A stretch of DNA of 64,000 nt, from NCBI GenBank assembly GCA_025463545.1, contig JAODAR010000009.1, positions 1 through 64,000 on the forward strand, given 5' to 3'. The position numbers and the translations under genes were made by a program. Below the pieces are notes generated by a model. The model was not told the DNA's origin and ran no database searches. It was given only the letters and a program-made list of their open reading frames with translations. Position 1 is the stretch's first letter; every line of letters begins with the position of its first letter. This document shows positions 53,867-64,000 of the stretch, piece after piece. Source of the DNA: Microbacteriaceae bacterium (GTDB taxonomy: Bacteria; Actinomycetota; Actinomycetes; Actinomycetales; Microbacteriaceae).

Positions 53867-56374
53867 TCACTCGAACGGGAGCGGTGACGCGGCGCGTTGG
53901 GCGGAGATCGGAAGAGTCAGTCCCGCCACCTCGATGTTTCCGGTCAGCGCGTCGCCGTCAATCGTCGCCGTTAGCCCAAGGTGGGGTTTTGTCGGCCGCA
54001 CCATTCCGGTTTCCGAGTCGAACGTGACGCTTGGGCCGGGCTGCCACATTGGGTCGCCTGGTGTCAGCACCCGCATGTTCCAAGGCTCGTCCCACCCAAC
54101 CCGGCTGAACCCGAGGAAGCCCAGACCGGATGCCCAGACGCCGTGAAGCCCCAGGCGAGGCAGGTCGACGGGTGTTGCGGTCCCCGTCCCCTCATCGACG
54201 CAGCTGCCCTTCAGCCGACCCGGGGCCGCGGTTAGCTCATAGCGACGTGCGGGAACCTCGCCCTGCCCGTCATGTCGAAACCGGAGCACTTTGTGGGCTG
54301 CGGTCCAGGTAAGGTCCTGCACGCGGACCCAGCGGTCCCGCGCGGGGTACTGGAGCAGCCCCACCATGCCGGCACCGGAGCCGAGTGGAGCTAGGTGCAG
54401 AACGAGGCCTCCTAGCGGCGTGGGGGCAATGCCGGCGTATACCAACCCACCTCCTCGGCTCGGCGGCCGCACCGCAGTGCCTCCGGGGTTGACGGCCCCC
54501 ACCGACTCCTCGAGCCCCTCTATGCCGTTCTGCGCGATCACGCGGGAGTACACGAGCCCGCCTTCGGTGAGATGCCGGGGCTTGCCTGGAATGGCGCGAT
54601 CGACTGCGAACAGTCCGAAGTGTGCCTCGGGCCGGTATCCTTCCTGCCATTCGTAGTTGTCCAGCAAGGACCAGTGCAGGTAGCCATCCACCGTAGCCCC
54701 GGCCCCAATAGCGTCAAGCACGCCGCGCAGGTGGCCGATTAGGGCAGGGCCCCGGTTGCGGTCGACCGTTTCGGGCAGCCCGTTCTCCGTGATGAGTACC
54801 CGGGCGCCGTACCGCATGCGGATCTCGTCGATGAAGAACCGAATCCCGTCGGGGTTCATTTCCCATCCGAGGTCGTTCACGAGTCCGTGCGGGGCGTCAC
54901 TGTCGTGCAACTCGTTGTCGAATGCGCCGCCGCTGAAGTTCGCGCGTAGCTCCACCAGCGCTTCCCACCACACGGCAACGGATCGGTAATAGTTGAGGCC
55001 AACGAAGTCCGCGCGCGGTCGCCAAGGTCCTCGCTCGATCCCGAGCCAGTCGGCAGCATCGTCGCCGGTCACCAGGTCTCGATCGGCGCTGCTCCACGCT
55101 ATTGCCGTGTCGATCTCGCCGGTGATCACCGCATTGAGTAGGTGCCAGTTATAGAAGTAGTCGAACTGCCGCCAAGCGTTCCGCGCGAGGCTGCCCGGCG
55201 CCCCTCGTGCCCGCATCATGGCGTGCGCGAACCCCACGCGAGCGGCCTGTCCATCGCCGTCCGCGTCGATGTCGTCGAGCCTCTTGATTACATCGTAGGC
55301 GCGACAGTGCGCGCGGATGAGGTTGAAGTAGGCGGCCTTTGCGCGGCTTCCATCGAGGGTGAAACCCGGCGGCCATACCCCGCCGAGGTACCCGACGCCA
55401 ATCATCGATCCGACTGGCTCATTGACGGTGATCCACCAGTCGACGCGGTCCTTAAGTCTGGGTACGACGTATTCCACGAGCCGCACGAAGCGGTCCACTA
55501 CATCGGGGTTCTCCCACCCGCGCAACGACATGTCGAAACCGTCGTCGGTCAAGGTTTCACCGAGGATCGAGGTCTTCTCCGGTGGTTTGAGCACCCAAAG
55601 CGGGAGCGTCAGGTGGTTCAGGGTGAGCACGGGACGCATCCCGCGTGATCGGATGGCGTCCACGACGCTCGAATAGTAGCCGAAGGCTGCCTGATCGACG
55701 TCACCGTCGGTTAACGGGGCCGTCCCGGTGTCTTGGGGCTCTAGTCGGGCCCATTCGACGGAGAAGCGGTAGGCGTTGATGCCCAGGGCGGCCGCCCGGT
55801 CCAGGTCCCGACTCAGCACTGTGAGGTTGAAGTGGTCGACGGCGCTGCCCGGCGGGTTGAGACGCACGTCGAGGCCGACCCGCTGGGTGTTCTTCCGAAC
55901 CCGCTCGGCGATCTTGATCGATGAGGTGAAGAAGTCCCAGTCATTGCCGGACGTGCTGCCCTCGACTTGATAGCCCGCGGTCGCGGCGCCCCAGAGGAAA
56001 CCTGCGGGGAATCGCATCGGTCGCGGCCCCCGCCCCGACCATGTGAATCTGTCGAGCTCGCGGCCGTCCCGGTCGGTAAGGACGGCGGTGTCGCCGCTGT
56101 TGTTCCACACCGCCCACCGCCGGCCCCAGTACAGGTCGTCGGCGTCGTTCACTCCGATTCCGGTGTGCACCCGGACTTGGGAGCCGGCGGCGAGCACGAA
56201 GCGGGGAAACACGTAGGTGTGCGGAGCGCGCGGCGCCGCCACAGCGTCCCGCAGCCGCCAGCCGGTGAGCTCTGCGTCGTTGTTGCCGACATTTTGCAGC
56301 AGCACGTACTCGCCGACGATGTCCGGTCCCGGAGGGTCGTAGACAACGGTGCGGATCTGTACCGTGGCGGGCAT
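53867..56374 (-). CDS. Lamin-tail domain/glycoside hydrolase family 1 fusion
   Basis: 835 residues from ATG 56374, which has AAGGAA 5 nt upstream. Residues ~5-115 resemble a lamin-tail domain (EYVLLQNVGNNDAELTGWRL, GDTAVLTDRDGRELDRF). Residues ~121-610 are a complete GH1 beta-glucosidase (RFPAGFLWGAATAGYQVEG, acid/base Glu319 in TVNEPVG, nucleophile Glu530 in ITENGLPE). A further ~190 residues form a C-terminal domain I do not recognise. No signal peptide is visible although lamin-tail domains are usually on exported proteins. It is the last gene of the PatG-type operon, 34 bp after the PLD gene. Confidence 0.85.
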   Translation of the reverse strand: MPATVQIRTVVYDPPGPDIVGEYVLLQNVGNNDAELTGWRLRDAVAAPRAPHTYVFPRFVLAAGSQVRVHTGIGVNDADDLYWGRRWAVWNNSGDTAVLTDRDGRELDRFTWSGRGPRPMRFPAGFLWGAATAGYQVEGSTSGNDWDFFTSSIKIAERVRKNTQRVGLDVRLNPPGSAVDHFNLTVLSRDLDRAAALGINAYRFSVEWARLEPQDTGTAPLTDGDVDQAAFGYYSSVVDAIRSRGMRPVLTLNHLTLPLWVLKPPEKTSILGETLTDDGFDMSLRGWENPDVVDRFVRLVEYVVPRLKDRVDWWITVNEPVGSMIGVGYLGGVWPPGFTLDGSRAKAAYFNLIRAHCRAYDVIKRLDDIDADGDGQAARVGFAHAMMRARGAPGSLARNAWRQFDYFYNWHLLNAVITGEIDTAIAWSSADRDLVTGDDAADWLGIERGPWRPRADFVGLNYYRSVAVWWEALVELRANFSGGAFDNELHDSDAPHGLVNDLGWEMNPDGIRFFIDEIRMRYGARVLITENGLPETVDRNRGPALIGHLRGVLDAIGAGATVDGYLHWSLLDNYEWQEGYRPEAHFGLFAVDRAIPGKPRHLTEGGLVYSRVIAQNGIEGLEESVGAVNPGGTAVRPPSRGGGLVYAGIAPTPLGGLVLHLAPLGSGAGMVGLLQYPARDRWVRVQDLTWTAAHKVLRFRHDGQGEVPARRYELTAAPGRLKGSCVDEGTGTATPVDLPRLGLHGVWASGLGFLGFSRVGWDEPWNMRVLTPGDPMWQPGPSVTFDSETGMVRPTKPHLGLTATIDGDALTGNIEVAGLTLPISAQRAASPLPFE

Positions 56375-56408
56375 GGCGTTCCTTCTCCGTGGCCTCTCCC
56401 GGCACCGG

Positions 56409-58502
56409 CTAGCTGAGGACGGCGAGCTTGTCCGTGTCGATGCCGAGTGCTTCCAATTGACTGCGTGCCGAGGACTCCGGACGGTAGGGCAAGACACTTC
56501 CACGGCTCAGGCTCGGCGGATCGGCGTTGAGCGAGGCGACATTGGCCGCCGCGTACTGCTGCCACAGCGATAGCCATCCCTGCGCGGGCCGCGCCATGGG
56601 TAGTTGTCCGAGGTGCTCGGACCACAGCGACGTGCGCAGCGCCCTAACCGCGTCGGTTGCGGGTTGGTCCGCGATCCCGTCGAGGAGCACACCGTTCACC
56701 TCGACGCTCCGCTTGCGAGAGCCGAACGGAAGTTCGGCTGCGGCCTCCATCGAGATCCCGTCGAGGTTCGCGGTGCCGACGGTCGCCCACCTGGTGTCGA
56801 CGATACCGACCTTGGCGTGCACATAGGCCTGCTGGATGCTGATTTTACCCGCTGACAGGCCCGTCCGCCAAAGCGTGAATGCCCCGAGTTGCGGGTGCGG
56901 CACGCCGATATCGCGAAACAGCCTCCGGTTCTGCCAACCTCTATAGGTCGGGATATCCGGGTGCTCGTTGATAAGCAGAACGACTTGCAACGCCGGGTTA
57001 TCCGCCATCGCCCGACGCAACGCACGTACGATCGCAGCGCTGCTGAAGTACTGGTTCTCCAAGTAGATCAAGTCAGTGGCAGCGCCGATCGCTCGCTGGT
57101 ACGCCTCGAGCACTCCTACCTCTCCACCAGGAAGTGCAGCAAGGATCTTGCGGGGCAACGTCCGGACCACCTGGATGCTCTGGCCCCCGGCCGCCGCCGG
57201 TCGTGGACCTGGGTCCGGCAGACTGTCAAGGCCGTTGATGGCGACGTTGGAGCGGTGATTCCACAGTGCCGCGAACGTATCAGCAACGTCTGCGGTGCCC
57301 GGTCCGGCAATGCGCATCGACACATCGTGCACCGGCCGCGCCCCGATCCCCTCCAAAGGTCGGCTTCCGCGTCGCGGCTCGATCACGAGGTGCCCTCGCG
57401 TGTCCCAGTAACCCTGCTCGAACGGTGATCCTATGATCATTGCCTTCGCGCGCGGCAGCCCGGGGTCGACCACCAGGATCTTGGCGTGCATCGTCTCGTA
57501 TGCCAGCGGAAACGCGCGCACGCTGACGTTGTGTGGCTTGCGCTGCGCGAACCAGTCGCTGACCTCGTCGACAGTGTCTGGTGTGACTGCGTTCTCATTC
57601 AGCAGCACCCGTACCGTGACCCCGGGCCGCCGGCCCGCCTCGAGCAGGCTCTCGAGGATAAGGTGTTCTGGCTTGGTCGCGTTCGTTGCCACCGGGCCGT
57701 CGTCGGTATAGGTCGCGACGAAGTCGTCGTCGATCCACAGTTGCGCCAGGTGCACCTCGGTGGTGGCGGTCTCGATCATTCGAATCATTTCGCGGCACGC
57801 TGCCAGGTTGTCGACGAGGATGTCGACACGATTGCCGGTGGACAACCGGGAGGGGGAATCACTGCCCAGCGTGGCGGCCCAGCCGTCCGCGACCGCCCGC
57901 GGCACCACTATGTCGTCCACGACGAGCACCGAGGACGTCACATCGGGCGCTTCGGCAGTCTCGGCCAACTGCCTGATTCCGACGCGATCGAAGACTGACA
58001 CGACGATGTCCGGCCGGTCCCCGAGAACCTCCTCGTACACAGTAGGGGGATAGCTGAGTGACCAGGTGCCGTCGGCCGCGGTTATGGCCCGGCCGAGAAC
58101 GTCATCCTTGCTGACTGTGTCGATGTCCGTCGCGATGACGACGAGACCCGTGATGGGCTGACCCATCTCGTCGACGACACGACCTTGGACGCCGATGTTC
58201 TTTCCGCTCAACTCCAAGTCGCCAAGCTCAAGGACGTCTTGGACGACGTCCCGGGACTCCTTCGTCGCGAAGACCACCGCGCCGCCCTGCCGGAGCTCCA
58301 CCACGATGTCCGGAAGTCGCTCGCCTGGACCATAGGCGGCTGCCGCGTAGGTGACGGTGAACTCGCCGTTCCCACCAGTGGTCCCTTCCCCGAGCAAGTC
58401 GCGGAATGGCCACACGTCATTGTCGTAGACCCGGACCGTAAGGCCGGGCCGGGCCGCTCCAGTACTGTCGACGACTCTCCCTGTGACTGTTGTGTTAGCC
58501 AT
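56409..58502 (-). CDS. Phospholipase D-like protein with N-terminal carboxypeptidase-regulatory-like domains
   Basis: 697 residues. Two transthyretin/CarboxypepD_reg-like beta domains (VTGRVVDSTGAARPGLTVRV at 6-25 and VQGRVVDEMGQPITGLVVIA at 105-124) precede a PLD region with two HKD motifs: H339-K341-D346 (MHAKILVVD) and H562-K564-D569 (VHAKVGIVDT). Both motifs are intact, so phosphodiesterase or transferase activity is likely. No signal peptide. GAGGAA lies 5 nt before ATG. It is 30 bp downstream of the CX3C peptide gene, in the same operon. Confidence 0.85.
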   Translation of the reverse strand: MANTTVTGRVVDSTGAARPGLTVRVYDNDVWPFRDLLGEGTTGGNGEFTVTYAAAAYGPGERLPDIVVELRQGGAVVFATKESRDVVQDVLELGDLELSGKNIGVQGRVVDEMGQPITGLVVIATDIDTVSKDDVLGRAITAADGTWSLSYPPTVYEEVLGDRPDIVVSVFDRVGIRQLAETAEAPDVTSSVLVVDDIVVPRAVADGWAATLGSDSPSRLSTGNRVDILVDNLAACREMIRMIETATTEVHLAQLWIDDDFVATYTDDGPVATNATKPEHLILESLLEAGRRPGVTVRVLLNENAVTPDTVDEVSDWFAQRKPHNVSVRAFPLAYETMHAKILVVDPGLPRAKAMIIGSPFEQGYWDTRGHLVIEPRRGSRPLEGIGARPVHDVSMRIAGPGTADVADTFAALWNHRSNVAINGLDSLPDPGPRPAAAGGQSIQVVRTLPRKILAALPGGEVGVLEAYQRAIGAATDLIYLENQYFSSAAIVRALRRAMADNPALQVVLLINEHPDIPTYRGWQNRRLFRDIGVPHPQLGAFTLWRTGLSAGKISIQQAYVHAKVGIVDTRWATVGTANLDGISMEAAAELPFGSRKRSVEVNGVLLDGIADQPATDAVRALRTSLWSEHLGQLPMARPAQGWLSLWQQYAAANVASLNADPPSLSRGSVLPYRPESSARSQLEALGIDTDKLAVLS

Positions 58503-58532
58503 GCCGTTCCTCGGGTACCCAATCTAGGCGCG

Positions 58533-58790
58533 TCAACAGTGACCGACGCATGCAGCCCATTGCCCCCTGCACTTCGGAGGGCAGGAGCCGACAACCCACT
58601 CCCACCACTGACACCCGGATAGGCATGAGGACCAAGCGTCCTGGCAGGCCGTGACGCAATTCCAATTCAGTTGGGGAACAACCATCTGGTCGGCGCCCAG
58701 GGGTGTTCTGCCGCGCGCGTACGAGGACAACCCGTACGAGGACAAACTGTCCAGTGAAGCAGACTCGCCGACAAAACCGGGGACTGCCAT
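58533..58790 (-). CDS. Cys-rich peptide with four symmetric CX3C pairs (candidate RiPP precursor)
   Basis: 85 residues from ATG 58790, preceded by AGGAGGG at 6 nt. The N-terminus is MAVPGFVGESASLDSLSSYG. A motif VVPQL (37-41) sits just before the first Cys. The last 41 residues hold eight Cys as four CX3C pairs: 45/49, 56/60, 70/74, 81/85, giving spacings X6, X9, X6, and five Trp. The arrangement suits two disulfide-linked helical hairpins or a modified core. No signal peptide. The PGFV start and the VV-PQL motif recur in the next peptide (59185-58892), which supports a common leader read by shared processing enzymes. Confidence 0.72.
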   Translation of the reverse strand: MAVPGFVGESASLDSLSSYGLSSYARGRTPLGADQMVVPQLNWNCVTACQDAWSSCLSGCQWWEWVVGSCPPKCRGQWAACVGHC

Positions 58791-58891
58791 CGCGAACCCT
58801 CCTGCTCTCAGATAACAAAGGGACCAAAGTCTCTCTCGGGCTCTCCCCACGGGAGTGTTGCGAGACGACGGGTGTCATGCCAGGATCGCTG

Positions 58892-59185
58892 CTAAACGAT
58901 TGTGACCCGGCACCCGGAACACCACGGGGCGTGCGCGCTCATGATGCCGTAAACGCAGTTCTCAGCCAGGTCTCGGCGCCCGATCCAACTAAAGAAACCG
59001 CAGCCCGCGTACTCTGCAGGACCGGCAAACGGCCAACACGTCGTGTCGAGGAACGTGTTGCCGCAGGATAGCCGGACAAGCTGCGGCTCAACCACATAGT
59101 CATCGTGGGCCGGCGGTCCCGCCCGCACACCGCTTCCCATGGTGCCGGTTGGCACCTGGGCAACAAATCCTGGTATCGCTTTCAT
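58892..59185 (-). CDS. Cys-containing peptide with PGFV leader (candidate RiPP precursor)
   Basis: 97 residues from ATG 59185; AAAGGAAA lies about 12 nt upstream. It begins MKAIPGFVAQVPTG, and VVEPQL at 31-36 precedes the first Cys at 41, as in the neighbouring 85-residue peptide. Six Cys follow (41, 50, 62, 77, 89, 92), with aromatic residues (CGFFSWIG, APWCSGC). No family recognised. It lies 23 bp after the PatG-like gene and 101 bp before the CX3C peptide gene on the same strand. Confidence 0.7.
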   Translation of the reverse strand: MKAIPGFVAQVPTGTMGSGVRAGPPAHDDYVVEPQLVRLSCGNTFLDTTCWPFAGPAEYAGCGFFSWIGRRDLAENCVYGIMSAHAPWCSGCRVTIV

Positions 59186-59208
59186 GTCTGACCACGTTTC
59201 CTTTCGGG

Positions 59209-60138
59209 CTATCGTTCGATGAACGACTGGAGCTTGGAGACGAGGAACGGGAACTCACCGCTGACGTCTACGCGGACGAAGTACGCTTCCGTGACGTCTG
59301 TGCGTCGATGCGTGTAGTACATGATGACATCGAGCACCCGCTGGGGCCCGCTCAGTCGCGACGGTCGCACCTCGATGCCGGTCAGCGACTTCTCTGCCCG
59401 GTGAGCCTCAATGGCATTGGCATAAATATGGGAATAGCGCAGCGCAAGGTAGTTCAGCGCTCTGTGCTCGTCGATTGCGCCCGCGTTATCTGCGACTTGG
59501 AGGAACCGATCGAAAAGCTCCGCGGCGGACTGACGGAACTGCTCCTCATCCGCCTCACCTTCCGGCAGAGGGATGGCGTCGATGAGCTCATCCCGGGAGA
59601 ACGAGTAGATCTGGTCGAATGCGACAACGGGAAGGACGAGCCCGCCGCACGCCTCCGGCGGTGCAAGCGGCCCTAACAATCCGATGACAACGTCCAGGTC
59701 GCCATTGCCGGCGGAGGTACGCACCGCGTCCGTAAGCAATTCCAAGTCCGCGGGGTCGCGCGGCACGAGGACATAAGTCGGCAACCGCTCAACGTTGAAG
59801 ACCCAGCACATCTGTCGGGCCAGATACCGGTTCTCCCGCTTGGACAGGACAGTCTGCAACGCCTCCAACTCATTCTTGCCCTCGGTGTTGTACCGCCCCA
59901 GCGCCTGCGCGTATTCCCGCTCGACGCCCAAGCTCGGGAAACGCGGTTCCACGCTCCCAAGAGCGTAGACATACGCCGCATCCGAGAGTGACGAACGAAC
60001 TGGCGATGGTGGCGCAGCAGCGGCAGATAAGTAGTCTGACACCGACGCCGGGGGTGCAGGTTCCGACACCGTCGTCGGTTCCATTGGGCGGCCTGCGTGG
60101 TCCGAACCCATGGCAGGGACAGGCCCGATATCGGTCAT
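59209..60138 (-). CDS. PatG C-terminal-domain protein (cyanobactin maturation protease-associated)
   Basis: 309 residues. After a variable Pro/Ser/Thr-rich N-terminus, residues ~53-305 match the region that follows the protease domain in PatG/TruG: YVYALGSVEPRFPSLGVERE (56-75), ENRYLARQMCWVFNVERL (102-119), YVLVPRDPADLELL, VIGLLGPLAPPEACGGLVLP, FDQIYSFSRDELI, DEHRALNYLALRY and VRPSRLSGPQ. In cyanobacteria this domain is fused to the macrocyclising subtilase; here it stands alone beside a separate subtilase. Its precise role is unknown even in PatG. The ATGA overlap with the preceding small peptide gene couples translation. Assignment is from remembered family sequence. Confidence 0.8.
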   Translation of the reverse strand: MTDIGPVPAMGSDHAGRPMEPTTVSEPAPPASVSDYLSAAAAPPSPVRSSLSDAAYVYALGSVEPRFPSLGVEREYAQALGRYNTEGKNELEALQTVLSKRENRYLARQMCWVFNVERLPTYVLVPRDPADLELLTDAVRTSAGNGDLDVVIGLLGPLAPPEACGGLVLPVVAFDQIYSFSRDELIDAIPLPEGEADEEQFRQSAAELFDRFLQVADNAGAIDEHRALNYLALRYSHIYANAIEAHRAEKSLTGIEVRPSRLSGPQRVLDVIMYYTHRRTDVTEAYFVRVDVSGEFPFLVSKLQSFIER

Positions 60139-60368
60139 CGGATCCCCCGCTCCACACCGGGGCTACTGGAATCACTTGATCGGCCCCATCCCCTCCCGTA
60201 CAGCACGACCCGGCGGTTGAGTGACTCGGCGCGACGCCCGCAGCCCCCGCACGGGGCAACCCCTAAGGTCGTCGTTATCCGCTTCACCGCGTCCCCAAGA
60301 CCGACCTCATCTGAGACGATAAAGCCGGGAAGCCGCACGCGACGAGGCTCTGAACTCCGTTCAGACAT
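60135..60368 (-). CDS. Small PGF/CGGC peptide
   Basis: 77 residues from ATG 60368 with GGAGAAGG just upstream. It reads RRVRLPGFIVSDEVGLGDAV at 9-28, then ITTTLGVAPCGGCGRRAESLNRR, and a polar tail. The GLGDAVKR...PCGGC..RA..LN pattern is one I recall as a short C-terminal motif in small bacterial proteins. The PGFI segment echoes the start of the Cys-rich peptides of this operon. It overlaps the protease stop by 8 bp and the PatG-like start by 4 bp, so it is bound tightly to both. It may be a substrate or a carrier/adaptor. Confidence 0.7.
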   Translation of the reverse strand: MSERSSEPRRVRLPGFIVSDEVGLGDAVKRITTTLGVAPCGGCGRRAESLNRRVVLYGRGWGRSSDSSSPGVERGIR

Positions 60369-61239
60369 GAACCTTCTCCCTTCGATCCACTTTCGACGGC
60401 AGCAGCGCCGCCAGGCTGTTGTAAGCCGCCGCCGCATCGAGCAGCGGTGGAATCACTGAGTACGGTCGAGTGCGCGCCGCCTGCAAAACGGTCCACCGCA
60501 GCGCCGCCGCGGAGACGGATGGAAACAGGCAGCGTAGCAACGCCAACGCACCGGTCACGAACGGTACCCCCGCGCTTGTGCCGCCCCCGTCCTGGTAACC
60601 GCCGTCGTAACCCAGGCTCGTAATTGCATCGCCGGGCGCGCCAAGCCCCCGGCGGCCGATCGAGGCGCCGAGGTTGGTGCGCGCGACCGGCCGACCGTCG
60701 CCGGCGAGGGCCGCGACGGGGATTACCCAGGGATGCCGCGTCAGGGCGGAACTGCCCAGCACGCCCTGATTGCCTGCAGCAGCCACGACAAGGCAACCGC
60801 GACTCGCCGCGTAGTCGAGGGCCCGATCCAATTCAGGTTCCGGTCGCGTGGACGGTCGCGAGAGGGCGACGCTGAGATTCACCACGACGGCCCCGCGCTC
60901 GGTGCAGCTGACGATCGCTGCGGTGAGGGCGGCCACGTCGGCGCGCAGATCGGTGTTGCCATCGACTTCGCCGGAGGAAAGGACGGGAGCAATCAACAAT
61001 GTGCAGTCTGGGCAAATACCGGGGGCCCCAGACGCTCGTGCTGCTCCGAGTACGCCAGCAACGAATGTGCCGTGCGCCGCCGCGCGGTCGCCGAGAGCCA
61101 GCAAAGGGGCACCGGCCATATGTGCTGCGAATTTGTCGTGACGGGCCACTGGACCGTCGACGACGGCCACGAGAACCGACGGATCTCCCCCAGTCGCGGC
61201 CATCACCGGACGGAGGCGGACCAAGTCCAAAGCGTCCAC
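60361..61239 (-). CDS. Subtilisin-like (S8) protease of the cyanobactin PatA/PatG type
   Basis: 292 residues from GTG 61239, which has GGGAGGGG about 6 nt upstream. The triad is complete: Asp28 in AVVDGPVARHDKF, His56 in AAHGTFVAGVLG, Ser222 in GGGTSAGVPFVTG; oxyanion Asn157 in AAAGNQG. The VDGPV start and GICPDCTLLIAPVL are close to PatA/PatG proteases (LDGPV, HGTHVAS) rather than to secreted subtilases, and there is no signal peptide or propeptide. It could remove leaders from the neighbouring PGF peptides and possibly ligate ends. A longer frame to 61431 overlaps the upstream peptide gene and is not preferred. Confidence 0.83.
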   Translation of the reverse strand: MDALDLVRLRPVMAATGGDPSVLVAVVDGPVARHDKFAAHMAGAPLLALGDRAAAHGTFVAGVLGAARASGAPGICPDCTLLIAPVLSSGEVDGNTDLRADVAALTAAIVSCTERGAVVVNLSVALSRPSTRPEPELDRALDYAASRGCLVVAAAGNQGVLGSSALTRHPWVIPVAALAGDGRPVARTNLGASIGRRGLGAPGDAITSLGYDGGYQDGGGTSAGVPFVTGALALLRCLFPSVSAAALRWTVLQAARTRPYSVIPPLLDAAAAYNSLAALLPSKVDRREKVHV

Positions 61240-61280
61240 TGGGAGCCCCTCCCAACTCAGATTGCTAGCTTTGCAGAGGT

Positions 61281-61712
61281 TTAGACGCAGATGACCGCCG
61301 GAGGACACTGCGCCTTCGACTCCTCTGCGACCCGATTGACTCCGGCGACGCACGCACCGACTAACGCCGGGCCGATACCTGGAACCCCACCCAATGTGGC
61401 CGTACACACCGCTGACGCCGCGGCTTTCCAAGCGTCCTGGGCCCCGACGCAGAGGGAGTGGTTGACGGAGTTATCCGTGGGCTTGCACACATAGGGGGGG
61501 TTGTCCGGCGGTTTCCCGCCGCACTCCTGAGTGCATAGCACGCTGCACCCGGAACTCGACATCCCGCCGTCAGCGCGACACTCCGAGAAGCAGTCCCCGA
61601 AGCATGATGCAGCGCGTACCTCGTACATTGTCGCTGCCCGCCAGGAAGGCGGTGTAACCGCAAAACCGGTGGGCCGCGTGAGCGAGTCCCCCGCCGAGAA
61701 ACCGAGAATCAT
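61281..61712 (-). CDS. Cys-rich peptide with CX3CX3C pairs, first gene of the PatG-type operon
   Basis: 143 residues from ATG 61712 with GGAGG 5 nt upstream. N-terminus MILGFSAGDSLTRPTGF. Twelve Cys: two CX3CX3C triplets at 37/41/45 and 56/60/64, then single Cys at 76, 88, 103, 120, 136 and 142. A Gly/Ala/Val-rich hydrophobic stretch (ATLGGVPGIGPALVGACVAG) lies near the C-terminus. It shares the CX3C theme with the 85-residue peptide, and its GF start resembles the PGF leaders. Its stop is 41 bp from the protease start. Three 11-bp repeats upstream are the likely SARP site driving the whole operon. Confidence 0.7.
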   Translation of the reverse strand: MILGFSAGDSLTRPTGFAVTPPSWRAATMYEVRAASCFGDCFSECRADGGMSSSGCSVLCTQECGGKPPDNPPYVCKPTDNSVNHSLCVGAQDAWKAAASAVCTATLGGVPGIGPALVGACVAGVNRVAEESKAQCPPAVICV

Positions 61713-61777: not shown

Positions 61778-61791
61778 AGTACGTTCTCAAC

Positions 61792-61824
61792 TGAGGCGTT
61801 ACTGAGGCGTTACTGAGGCGTTAC
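61792..61824. promoter_or_regulatory. Triple 11-bp direct repeat, candidate SARP operator
   Basis: Three perfect copies of TGAGGCGTTAC (61792-61802, 61803-61813, 61814-61824). SARP activators bind 7-bp direct repeats spaced so that the period is 11 bp, one helical turn, overlapping the -35 region; this array matches that rule. It lies 80 nt before the first gene of the operon and a SARP-like gene is at the window end. Confidence 0.7.
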
Positions 61825-62185
61825 TGGCTAGATTGCTCGGTGACTGAAACCCTGACGACTGTCTTGAGTTTTGAATCGGAGTATCGTATTTCATGTCCGC
61901 TCCACAATTGCCGGGAACCTGTCCTGACCAGCCTCTTGGGCTGGAAACATCTGGTTTTTCCGCGAACCGGAACTTCGGCGTAGTGGGCGGTGGTGGTCGG
62001 CCGTACAGATCGCAAGTCATTAGTCGGAGTGTGCTCACAACTGTCTGACCGCGCGGGAACGTTCGCGAGGAACACGCGACCCGGAAACAAGGACCGTACC
62101 CCATCCGCTCATTGTCAACGCCCTGCTAACTCTCGACTTGTGGAACGTCGGTCGGGCGTTTAGCCCGATGCCGTGTCCCAAACGG

Positions 62186-63634: not shown

Positions 63635-64000
63635 CTAAGTTTTCTTAGGGTTGGGAGGCCGACCGAGCTGTTCCCTGTGGACCGCTGCGTTGGGCAGGAG
63701 ACCAAGCACAAGATTAGTCGTCTGGATAGACGGTTCCACGAGCCATTCAGACCGAAGCCTCACGCTGAGGGATTGATAGGCATCGAGCGCTGCTGCCTGA
63801 TTGCCGCTTTCCAAGTACGCCTGAATGAGGAGCTGGTAAGCGCTCTCTCGCAGCGGCTGCAGCATACGGGCAGCCAGTGCCGCGCGGGCAGCCATCTCCA
63901 GTTGGTCGTGAGCGAGAAGCGACCGAGCTAAGGACTCGAGCGAATCAAGACGGAGTTCTAGGAGCCGCTCTTGCTCCTCAACTACCCAGTCGTCGTACCA
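63635..64000 (-). CDS. SARP-type regulator, C-terminal BTAD part (runs off the window)
   Basis: The last 121 residues of a protein whose start lies beyond 64000. It reads WYDDWVVEEQERLLELRLDS at the edge, then SLLAHDQLEMAARAALAARM, LQPLRESAYQLLIQAYLESG and NQAAALDAYQSLSVRLRSEW. This is the bacterial transcriptional activator (BTAD) repeat domain of AfsR/SARP proteins. The gene ends soon after the domain, so it is the short SARP form with DNA-binding plus BTAD only. SARPs activate antibiotic and peptide clusters; the triple 11-bp repeat at 61792-61824 is its probable target. Confidence 0.85.
   Translation of the reverse strand, partial: WYDDWVVEEQERLLELRLDSLESLARSLLAHDQLEMAARAALAARMLQPLRESAYQLLIQAYLESGNQAAALDAYQSLSVRLRSEWLVEPSIQTTNLVLGLLPNAAVHREQLGRPPNPKKT

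Follow-up and report, generated by a model that had tools for sequence, protein, structure and literature searches.

A compact minus-strand operon of a Microbacteriaceae bacterium (assembly GCA_025463545.1, contig JAODAR010000009.1) probably encodes a leader-protease system for the release of disulfide-rich mini-proteins, in which a free-standing PatG-domain protein and a small CxxC protein act as helpers. The operon lies at positions 53867-61712 of a 64,000-nucleotide stretch, referred to here as the window. It contains genes for an S8 subtilase, the CxxC protein (named CGGC after its motif), the PatG-domain protein, and three cysteine-rich peptides (W1, W2, and W3), followed by two large genes (Table 1). 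A preliminary description of the window had listed eight tightly packed genes with these domains, and the open reading frames (ORFs) and Pfam matches confirm it. All eight ORFs are present with short gaps or overlaps; the S8 and CGGC frames share 8 nucleotides, and the CGGC and PatG frames share 4. The system picked out there is real and unusual, and it extends further than that description stated.

Conservation and Distribution of the Gene Set

Related loci were sought in GTDB contigs using two conserved words of close relatives. The best 80 of the 117 loci found were retained, and the locus counts given here hold for that set. Within 4 kb of the PatG gene, 74 of the 80 loci have an S8 gene, 62 a CGGC gene, and 68 a leader peptide gene, while 54 have all three. 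Of the 60 loci with both partners, 55 show the order S8-CGGC-PatG. The expectation that the small peptides would be conserved with the protease and PatG genes therefore holds for the leader peptides.

Distances between the S8 proteins correlate with those between the PatG proteins (r of 0.81, 74 loci), and the best of 300 label shuffles reached 0.22. The corresponding value for the CGGC and PatG proteins is 0.53 (56 loci; best shuffle, 0.22). Correlated S8 and PatG distances are expected of partners that travel together, and shared host descent adds to them as well.

The system had been described for an actinobacterium. The split protease and PatG domain beside cysteine-rich peptides stand as described, but they are not special to one actinobacterium, as the system recurs, complete or partial, in loci that by title belong to about a dozen phyla of bacteria and archaea. 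The bacterial titles include Actinomycetes, Proteobacteria, Nitrospira, Acidobacteria, cyanobacteria, Planctomycetes with Brocadia, Verrucomicrobiota, Chloroflexi (Anaerolineae and Caldilineaceae), Deltaproteobacteria with Electrothrix, and Hydrogenedentota. Archaea are represented by Methanosaeta/Methanothrix, Methanoperedens, and a Nitrososphaerales contig. No PatG match was found in viral contigs or in phages, and five plasmid records contain one. On a Streptomyces plasmid (L105), a recombinase gene and a Tn3 transposase flank the S8, small peptide, and PatG genes.

Precursor Leaders

PGF-leader peptides are encoded near the PatG gene and on its strand in 60 of the 80 loci, for a total of 117 peptides; 4 others are on the opposite strand and 6 are further away. 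When the same loci were searched with a hidden Markov model (HMM) built from these leaders, 156 peptides were found close to PatG on its strand and 4 in other places. Frames overlapping the S8 or PatG genes (5 of 132), frames rejected by eye (6 of 117, two of them CGGC), and near-duplicates (11 of 111) were dropped, and some of the dropped peptides reappear in the leader-HMM set.

The leader follows the pattern PGF-TAE-x-SLY-x5-Y, with [V/I]-x-P-[Q/A] approximately 29 residues after the PGF. The profile of the 100 dereplicated peptides reads M-x-[MIL]-PGF-T-A-E-A-S-L-Y. PGF is present by definition, and the following residues are T in 75, A in 97, E in 76, S in 75, and L in 73 peptides, with Y at +15 in 75. 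A second motif, [VIL]-x-P-[QASM] at 18 to 45 residues past the PGF, occurs in 74 of the 100 peptides at a median distance of 29 residues (quartiles 28 to 30). It occurred in a mean of 6.1 and a maximum of 13 peptides over 500 shuffles.

Among paralogs within one locus, leader identity is 40% and core identity 26% (46 pairs). The three cysteine-rich peptides and the CGGC peptide of the window match nothing significantly in Pfam or NCBIfam, and no family in either database covers the precursors as a class. A profile search of public proteins with the precursor alignment gave 48 matches among 689 candidates, which says little about the number of precursors because the peptides are too variable for such a search.

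Cysteine-Rich Cores

Cysteine is almost confined to the region after the second motif. In the 74 motif-bearing peptides it accounts for 14 of 2504 residues before the motif (0.6%) and 584 of 4693 after it (12.4%), or 462 of 4206 when one 530-residue protein with 122 cysteines is excluded. None of the cysteines of W1, W2, and W3 precedes the second leader motif (Table 1).

The number of cysteines is even in 106 of the 110 cysteine-containing cores, and in 56 of 58 when one core per family is counted. The 45 leader-HMM peptides outside the strict set agree, with an even number in 39 of the 42 that have cysteine. Among control frames of 60 to 150 residues from other parts of the loci, 786 of 1298 with at least two cysteines have an even number, as do 366 of 565 with at least four. 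Whole peptides, leader and core together, are even in just 93 of 111. In the 14 peptides whose leader has an odd number of cysteines, the core number is always even; L054, with a doubtful cut site, was counted as 0. Even numbers in the cores fit cysteine pairing once the leader has been removed.

The cores themselves are diverse, with 67 of 114 being singletons when the window peptides are included. Some core families recur in distant hosts, for example Nitrospira, Methanoperedens, and a Pyrinomonadaceae contig. Repeats of the CC..CC type give some cores a likeness to granulin/knottin-like domains, and one core resembles a CBM_14 domain. The granulin likeness was judged by eye. At E<=0.01, only 1 of the 111 precursors matches a Pfam family of this kind (CBM_14, 9.7e-8), which sets the precursors apart from both groups.

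Metallothionein-like peptides that bind metal, freed by the protease and served by the CxxC protein as a metal carrier, would also be rich in cysteine. CC pairs are present in 26 of the 100 precursors, and one weak NCBIfam match to a putative metal-binding family was obtained (0.0078). However, metal clusters need no even number of cysteines, and the core families are diverse, with some resembling disulfide domains. This explanation is improbable, and disulfide-bonded cores remain the preferred one.

Three observations concern unusual leader proteins. The PGF-leader peptide at L079:10880-11200 has a chitin-binding-like core and was taken by eye as the CBM_14 match. The 530-residue PGF-leader protein is encoded on the Nitrososphaerales contig (L050:5627-7219) and contains CC-rich repeats. 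Actinobacterial leaders of the TAESSLY/TAEASLY type without a PGF are found in frames of 265 to 344 residues at L046, L049, L060, L065, and L078, with 39 to 53 cysteines after the leader; similar frames are present in L051 and L061.

The S8 Protease

The window S8 protein has the intact catalytic triad first described and a Peptidase_S8 match (Table 1), and has no visible signal peptide or propeptide. Across 75 aligned S8 proteins the aspartate is present in 71, the histidine in 74, and the serine in 73. The remainder are gaps, partly from truncated frames, and no substitutions of the three residues occur. No signal peptide was seen in the S8 rows examined.

The best solved relative of the window protein is 4h6w, an N-terminal cyanobactin protease (7.5e-22). 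The match to the oxidase/subtilisin-like chain 4h6x, which we take to be the macrocyclase, is only 4.6e-7. A profile of 25 S8 proteins matched only four solved chains at E<=1e-30, namely 4h6w, 4h6v, 3zxx, and 3zxy (9e-48 to 9e-43); the last three are presumably PatA/PagA proteases. The cyanobactin model TIGR03895 matches both the S8 protein (7.6e-23) and the PatG protein (1.4e-10), in each case below its cut-off. Judged by sequence, the nearest relative of the protease is PatA, the leader protease of cyanobactins, and not the PatG macrocyclase. The earlier label of a PatA/PatG-like protease is thus retained in its PatA half and dropped in its PatG half, the operon having a single, PatA-like S8 gene in place of a PatG-type macrocyclase.

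Other subtilases that remove leaders were compared. ElxP of the epilancin pathway is an S8 leader protease whose recognition motif, (D/E)(L/V)-x-x-Q, precedes the cut (PMC10885120), and the L/V-x-x-Q spacing equals that of V-x-P-Q in the present leaders. The model of QhpE, likewise an S8 leader protease of another peptide, matches 24 of 25 S8 proteins, including the window S8 at 9.2e-7, below the cut-off. Both differ from the present system in their leaders, and among the scanned neighbours neither lanthipeptide nor radical SAM families recur.

The subtilase could also be the effector of an anti-phage or regulated-proteolysis module. PADLOC matches the S8 protein to a subtilase model (3.4e-10) and to IetS (1.3e-4), and matches the phospholipase-D-like (PLD) protein of the operon to DrmC (1.2e-8); an anti-phage S8 model also matches 1 of 25 S8 proteins. 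The PADLOC matches span shared catalytic domains, though. No partner gene was present among the six window proteins scanned, and such a module leaves the leader peptides unaccounted for, which makes it extremely unlikely. Leader removal is the better account of the protease.

The PatG-Domain and CGGC Proteins

The identification of the PatG-domain protein, on which the first description depended, is borne out by matches to PatG_C (2.3e-34) and PatG_D (1.5e-29). Its model (predicted local distance difference test, pLDDT, of 81) has a single Foldseek match at E<=0.001, the crystal structure 4uvq. A search with the free protein found 6824 relatives among 8000 scored candidates, and the closest named relatives are actinobacterial. 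The fold of the PatG C-terminal domain has been solved and its role left open (PMC4259220).

The CGGC protein had been listed as a small PGF/CGGC peptide. In a 33-row alignment, PGF, C-x-x-C, RA, and LN are invariant, and the protein is conserved along its whole length. With this conservation and the invariant CxxC it looks like a partner protein and not a precursor with a variable core. A search found 7970 relatives among 7999 scored, and among the 120 matches listed every name shown is hypothetical protein. There is no significant Pfam or NCBIfam family, with the best values over 33 members being 0.022 and 0.068.

The model of the CGGC protein (pLDDT 76; predicted template-modelling score 0.52) places the first cysteine immediately before a helix, which is the site of the redox CxxC in thioredoxin-like proteins. 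The protein has an LPGF element like that of the leaders, and so it may dock where the leaders dock. A second CGGC gene was observed on the opposite strand at L057:13048-13203, with a PGF frame alongside.

YcaO, Tailoring, and Transport

A YcaO search of 26 cassette-bearing genomes found none in 12. The other 14 contain YcaO. Ten of these were compared for contig position, and YcaO is on the PatG contig in three (G012, G004, and G017), where it is at least 45 kb from the split PatG, and on another contig in seven. No YcaO was found in the window cluster by a scan covering nine window proteins and the BTAD fragment only.

One Saccharopolyspora genome (L099 and L104, and also L076 and L090) contains two fused S8-PatG proteins approximately 4 to 14 kb from YcaO genes, and a split cassette approximately 40 kb off. 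A cyanobactin-like fused cluster and a split cassette are here two systems side by side. One linker of the fused pair carries a CGCGG...CACG stretch.

The patellamide-type cyanobactin pathway (PatA/PatG) resembles the present system in its PatA-type subtilase, its 4uvq-fold PatG domain, and its adjacent leader peptides. It differs in that the domains are here separate genes, with one S8 only that is not macrocyclase-like, and in the extra CxxC protein, the cysteine-rich cores with even cysteine numbers, and the lack of YcaO in 12 of 26 genomes. Cyanobactin-type products, with cores cyclised head to tail or carrying YcaO-made azoles, are favoured by the PatA-type protease, the PatG domain, the TIGR03895 matches, and the presence of some YcaO in 14 of the genomes. 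Against them, YcaO is distant from the split PatG in the three same-contig cases, and even cysteine counts fit disulfides. Furthermore, the PatA motif G(L/V)E(A/P)S was found in 0 of 100 precursors, with no evident C-terminal consensus. No C-terminal recognition sequence of the AYDG type was found either, and [AS]YD occurs anywhere in 1 of the 100. Such products are very improbable. The system is not called a cyanobactin here because YcaO is missing from 12 of the 26 genomes and no tailoring family recurs.

That second statement rests on Pfam scans of 60 and 81 of 342 picked neighbouring frames, plus three window proteins. No tailoring or transport family recurs among them, and no Pfam family exceeds 2 of the 63 or 3 of the 81 frames scanned. 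Clusters of same-strand frames overlying PatG were ignored, being partly off-frame artefacts. A cluster of ABC exporter-like frames, recognised by eye in 9 of 80 loci, was judged to be background, and a literature search on a possible connection with contractile injection systems gave nothing.

The PLD and GH1 proteins had been proposed as part of the system, and the related loci do not bear this out. Just two of the 80 loci have a relative of the PLD protein, namely L076 (E 2.5e-12, opposite strand) and L018 (E 6.5e-5, CarboxypepD part only). No relative of the GH1 protein was found in the 80 loci. On this distribution, both genes are local passengers outside the conserved set. With these two only local and no family recurring in the scanned neighbours, proteolysis is the sole step with a recognisable enzyme. 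The designation as a ribosomally synthesized and post-translationally modified peptide (RiPP) system accordingly holds in part: a leader-core precursor lies beside a processing enzyme and leader removal is predicted, but the neighbours scanned contain no recurrent tailoring family.

The PGF leader might instead be chiefly a tag that directs small disulfide proteins to sorting or export, with the S8 protease trimming and the PatG and CGGC proteins delivering to an export route coded elsewhere. Some leader proteins are large and domain-like, as with the 530-residue protein of L050 and the one CBM_14 match, and disulfides form mostly outside the cytosol. Both points suit a tag, yet no secretion family recurs among the scanned neighbours and the S8 rows examined lack a signal peptide. 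An export tag is therefore considered unlikely, and the leader is preferentially read as a sequence that the protease removes.

Proposed Mechanism

The S8 protease would cut the cysteine-rich precursors just after the [V/I]-x-P-[Q/A]-like motif that ends the leader of approximately 30 residues. The cores so released would be mini-proteins, likely disulfide-bonded. The free PatG-domain protein is likely a leader-recognition helper. The CxxC protein is likely a helper of oxidative folding that handles thiols, as suggested by its LPGF element and the modelled cysteine before a helix. The product is expected to leave the cell. Variable cores, often several per locus, fit a use in microbial competition or signalling.

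A wider reading is put forward tentatively, as a possibility with the balance somewhat against it. The system may be a peptide-maturation class of its own across bacteria and archaea, in which the subtilase and the free PatG protein work as one machine with a CxxC thiol oxidoreductase that mimics the leader. This machine would cut the PGF...VxPQ leader and fold the mini-proteins oxidatively inside the cell, and would be the original setting of the unexplained PatG domain of the fused cyanobactin proteases.

Several results weigh against the leader-protease system as proposed. The gene set is incomplete in part of the sample, with 6 of 80 loci lacking S8 and 18 lacking CGGC. Some of these are short contigs, but 10 kb of sequence is available on either side in L066 (no S8) and in L035 and L042 (no CGGC). 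Among the archaea, L022 combines S8 with three leader peptides and lacks CGGC, and two Methanothrix-type loci consist of PatG alone in the available stretch, with no S8 or leaders. The Nitrososphaerales contig has a leader protein and no S8 within its 7.4 kb. Several loci are from related species, so the counts are not all independent, and no transporter recurs among the scanned neighbours.

The leader and core patterns have exceptions as well. The strict second motif is missing in 26 of 100 precursors, and a looser form, counted without a shuffle control, covers 82. W1 lacks both the PGF and the proline. It has 39% identity (tblastn E 1.4e-7) to the PGF-leader peptide L017:4956-5138 of a Gemmataceae contig, and the two cores fall in one cluster. 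Even cysteine counts exceed one half in the control frames too.

Doubts attach also to each of the three proteins. NCBIfam scores the window S8 higher as a mycosin (119 bits) than as PatA (81 bits). Both scores are far below cut-off, the mycosin equivalog cut-off being 278.75 bits, and both models match 25 of the 25 S8 proteins tried. The mycosins of type VII secretion are alike in that their model is the best NCBIfam match, but solved mycosins match at approximately 4e-9 as compared to 7.5e-22 for 4h6w, and no type VII secretion family recurs in the scanned neighbours. The CGGC model is modest and matches no fold. As for PatG, the isolated patellamide domain bound no linear substrate tested, which counts against a simple leader-binding role (PMC4259220).

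The protease and the PatG domain are known components, while the arrangement and the leader grammar are new and the product type is likely new. No description of the system was found in the literature searched, which covers few subscription papers, so that a description elsewhere is possible. In the same literature the string PGFTAE does not occur, PF18065 and PF18047 are not mentioned, and "PatG C-terminal" appears only in a protease review.

With PatG standing alone beside one protease, a small CxxC protein, and its likely substrates, a handful of small genes is enough to test the role of the domain. The PatG and CGGC families are large and mostly unnamed, so a leader grammar, once defined, would give access to many disulfide-rich peptides of soil, nitrifying, methane-cycling, and cyanobacterial microbes.

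Operon Layout and Other Features

The features of the operon and its upstream region are given in Table 1. The window has a G+C content of 65.6%. The listed frame of the LTD-GH1 protein begins upstream of the ATG at 56374.

Table 1. Features of the operon and of the adjoining sequence, in window positions.
Feature	Position	Strand	Description
Precursor W1	61281..61712	-	143 aa; degenerate leader ILGF...VRAA; 12-Cys core
S8 subtilase, PatA-type	60361..61239	-	GTG start; catalytic D28/H56/S222; PF00082 1.1e-19
CxxC partner (CGGC)	60135..60368	-	77 aa; RLPGF...GLGD...PCGGC..RA..LN
Free-standing PatG_D + PatG_C protein	59209..60138	-	309 aa; PF18065 2.3e-34, PF18047 1.5e-29
Precursor W2	58892..59185	-	97 aa; IPGF leader, VEPQ, 6-Cys core; aligns with leader family
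Precursor W3	58533..58790	-	85 aa; ATG at 58790; VPGF leader, VVPQ, 8-Cys core; aligns with leader family
Phospholipase-D-like protein with two CarboxypepD_reg stretches	56409..58502	-	PLDc_2 PF13091 7.5e-17; CarboxypepD_reg 2.2e-09
Lamin-tail (LTD) + GH1 protein	53867..56374	-	PF00232 1e-61; PF00932 2e-20
11-bp direct repeat, 3.4 perfect copies	61790..61826	.	Tandem Repeats Finder, 100% matches
BTAD (SARP-type) activator fragment	63638-64000		window end

The 11-bp direct repeat lies approximately 80 bp upstream of the first operon gene, and a script test identified no other such site in the window. SARPs bind direct repeats like this one, and it is possibly an activator site. The same script test identified upstream 11-base repeats in 2 of the 80 related loci, and the repeat was rejected as a general feature. 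A caspase-domain (Peptidase_C14) protein is encoded near the cassette at L001:5703-7313.

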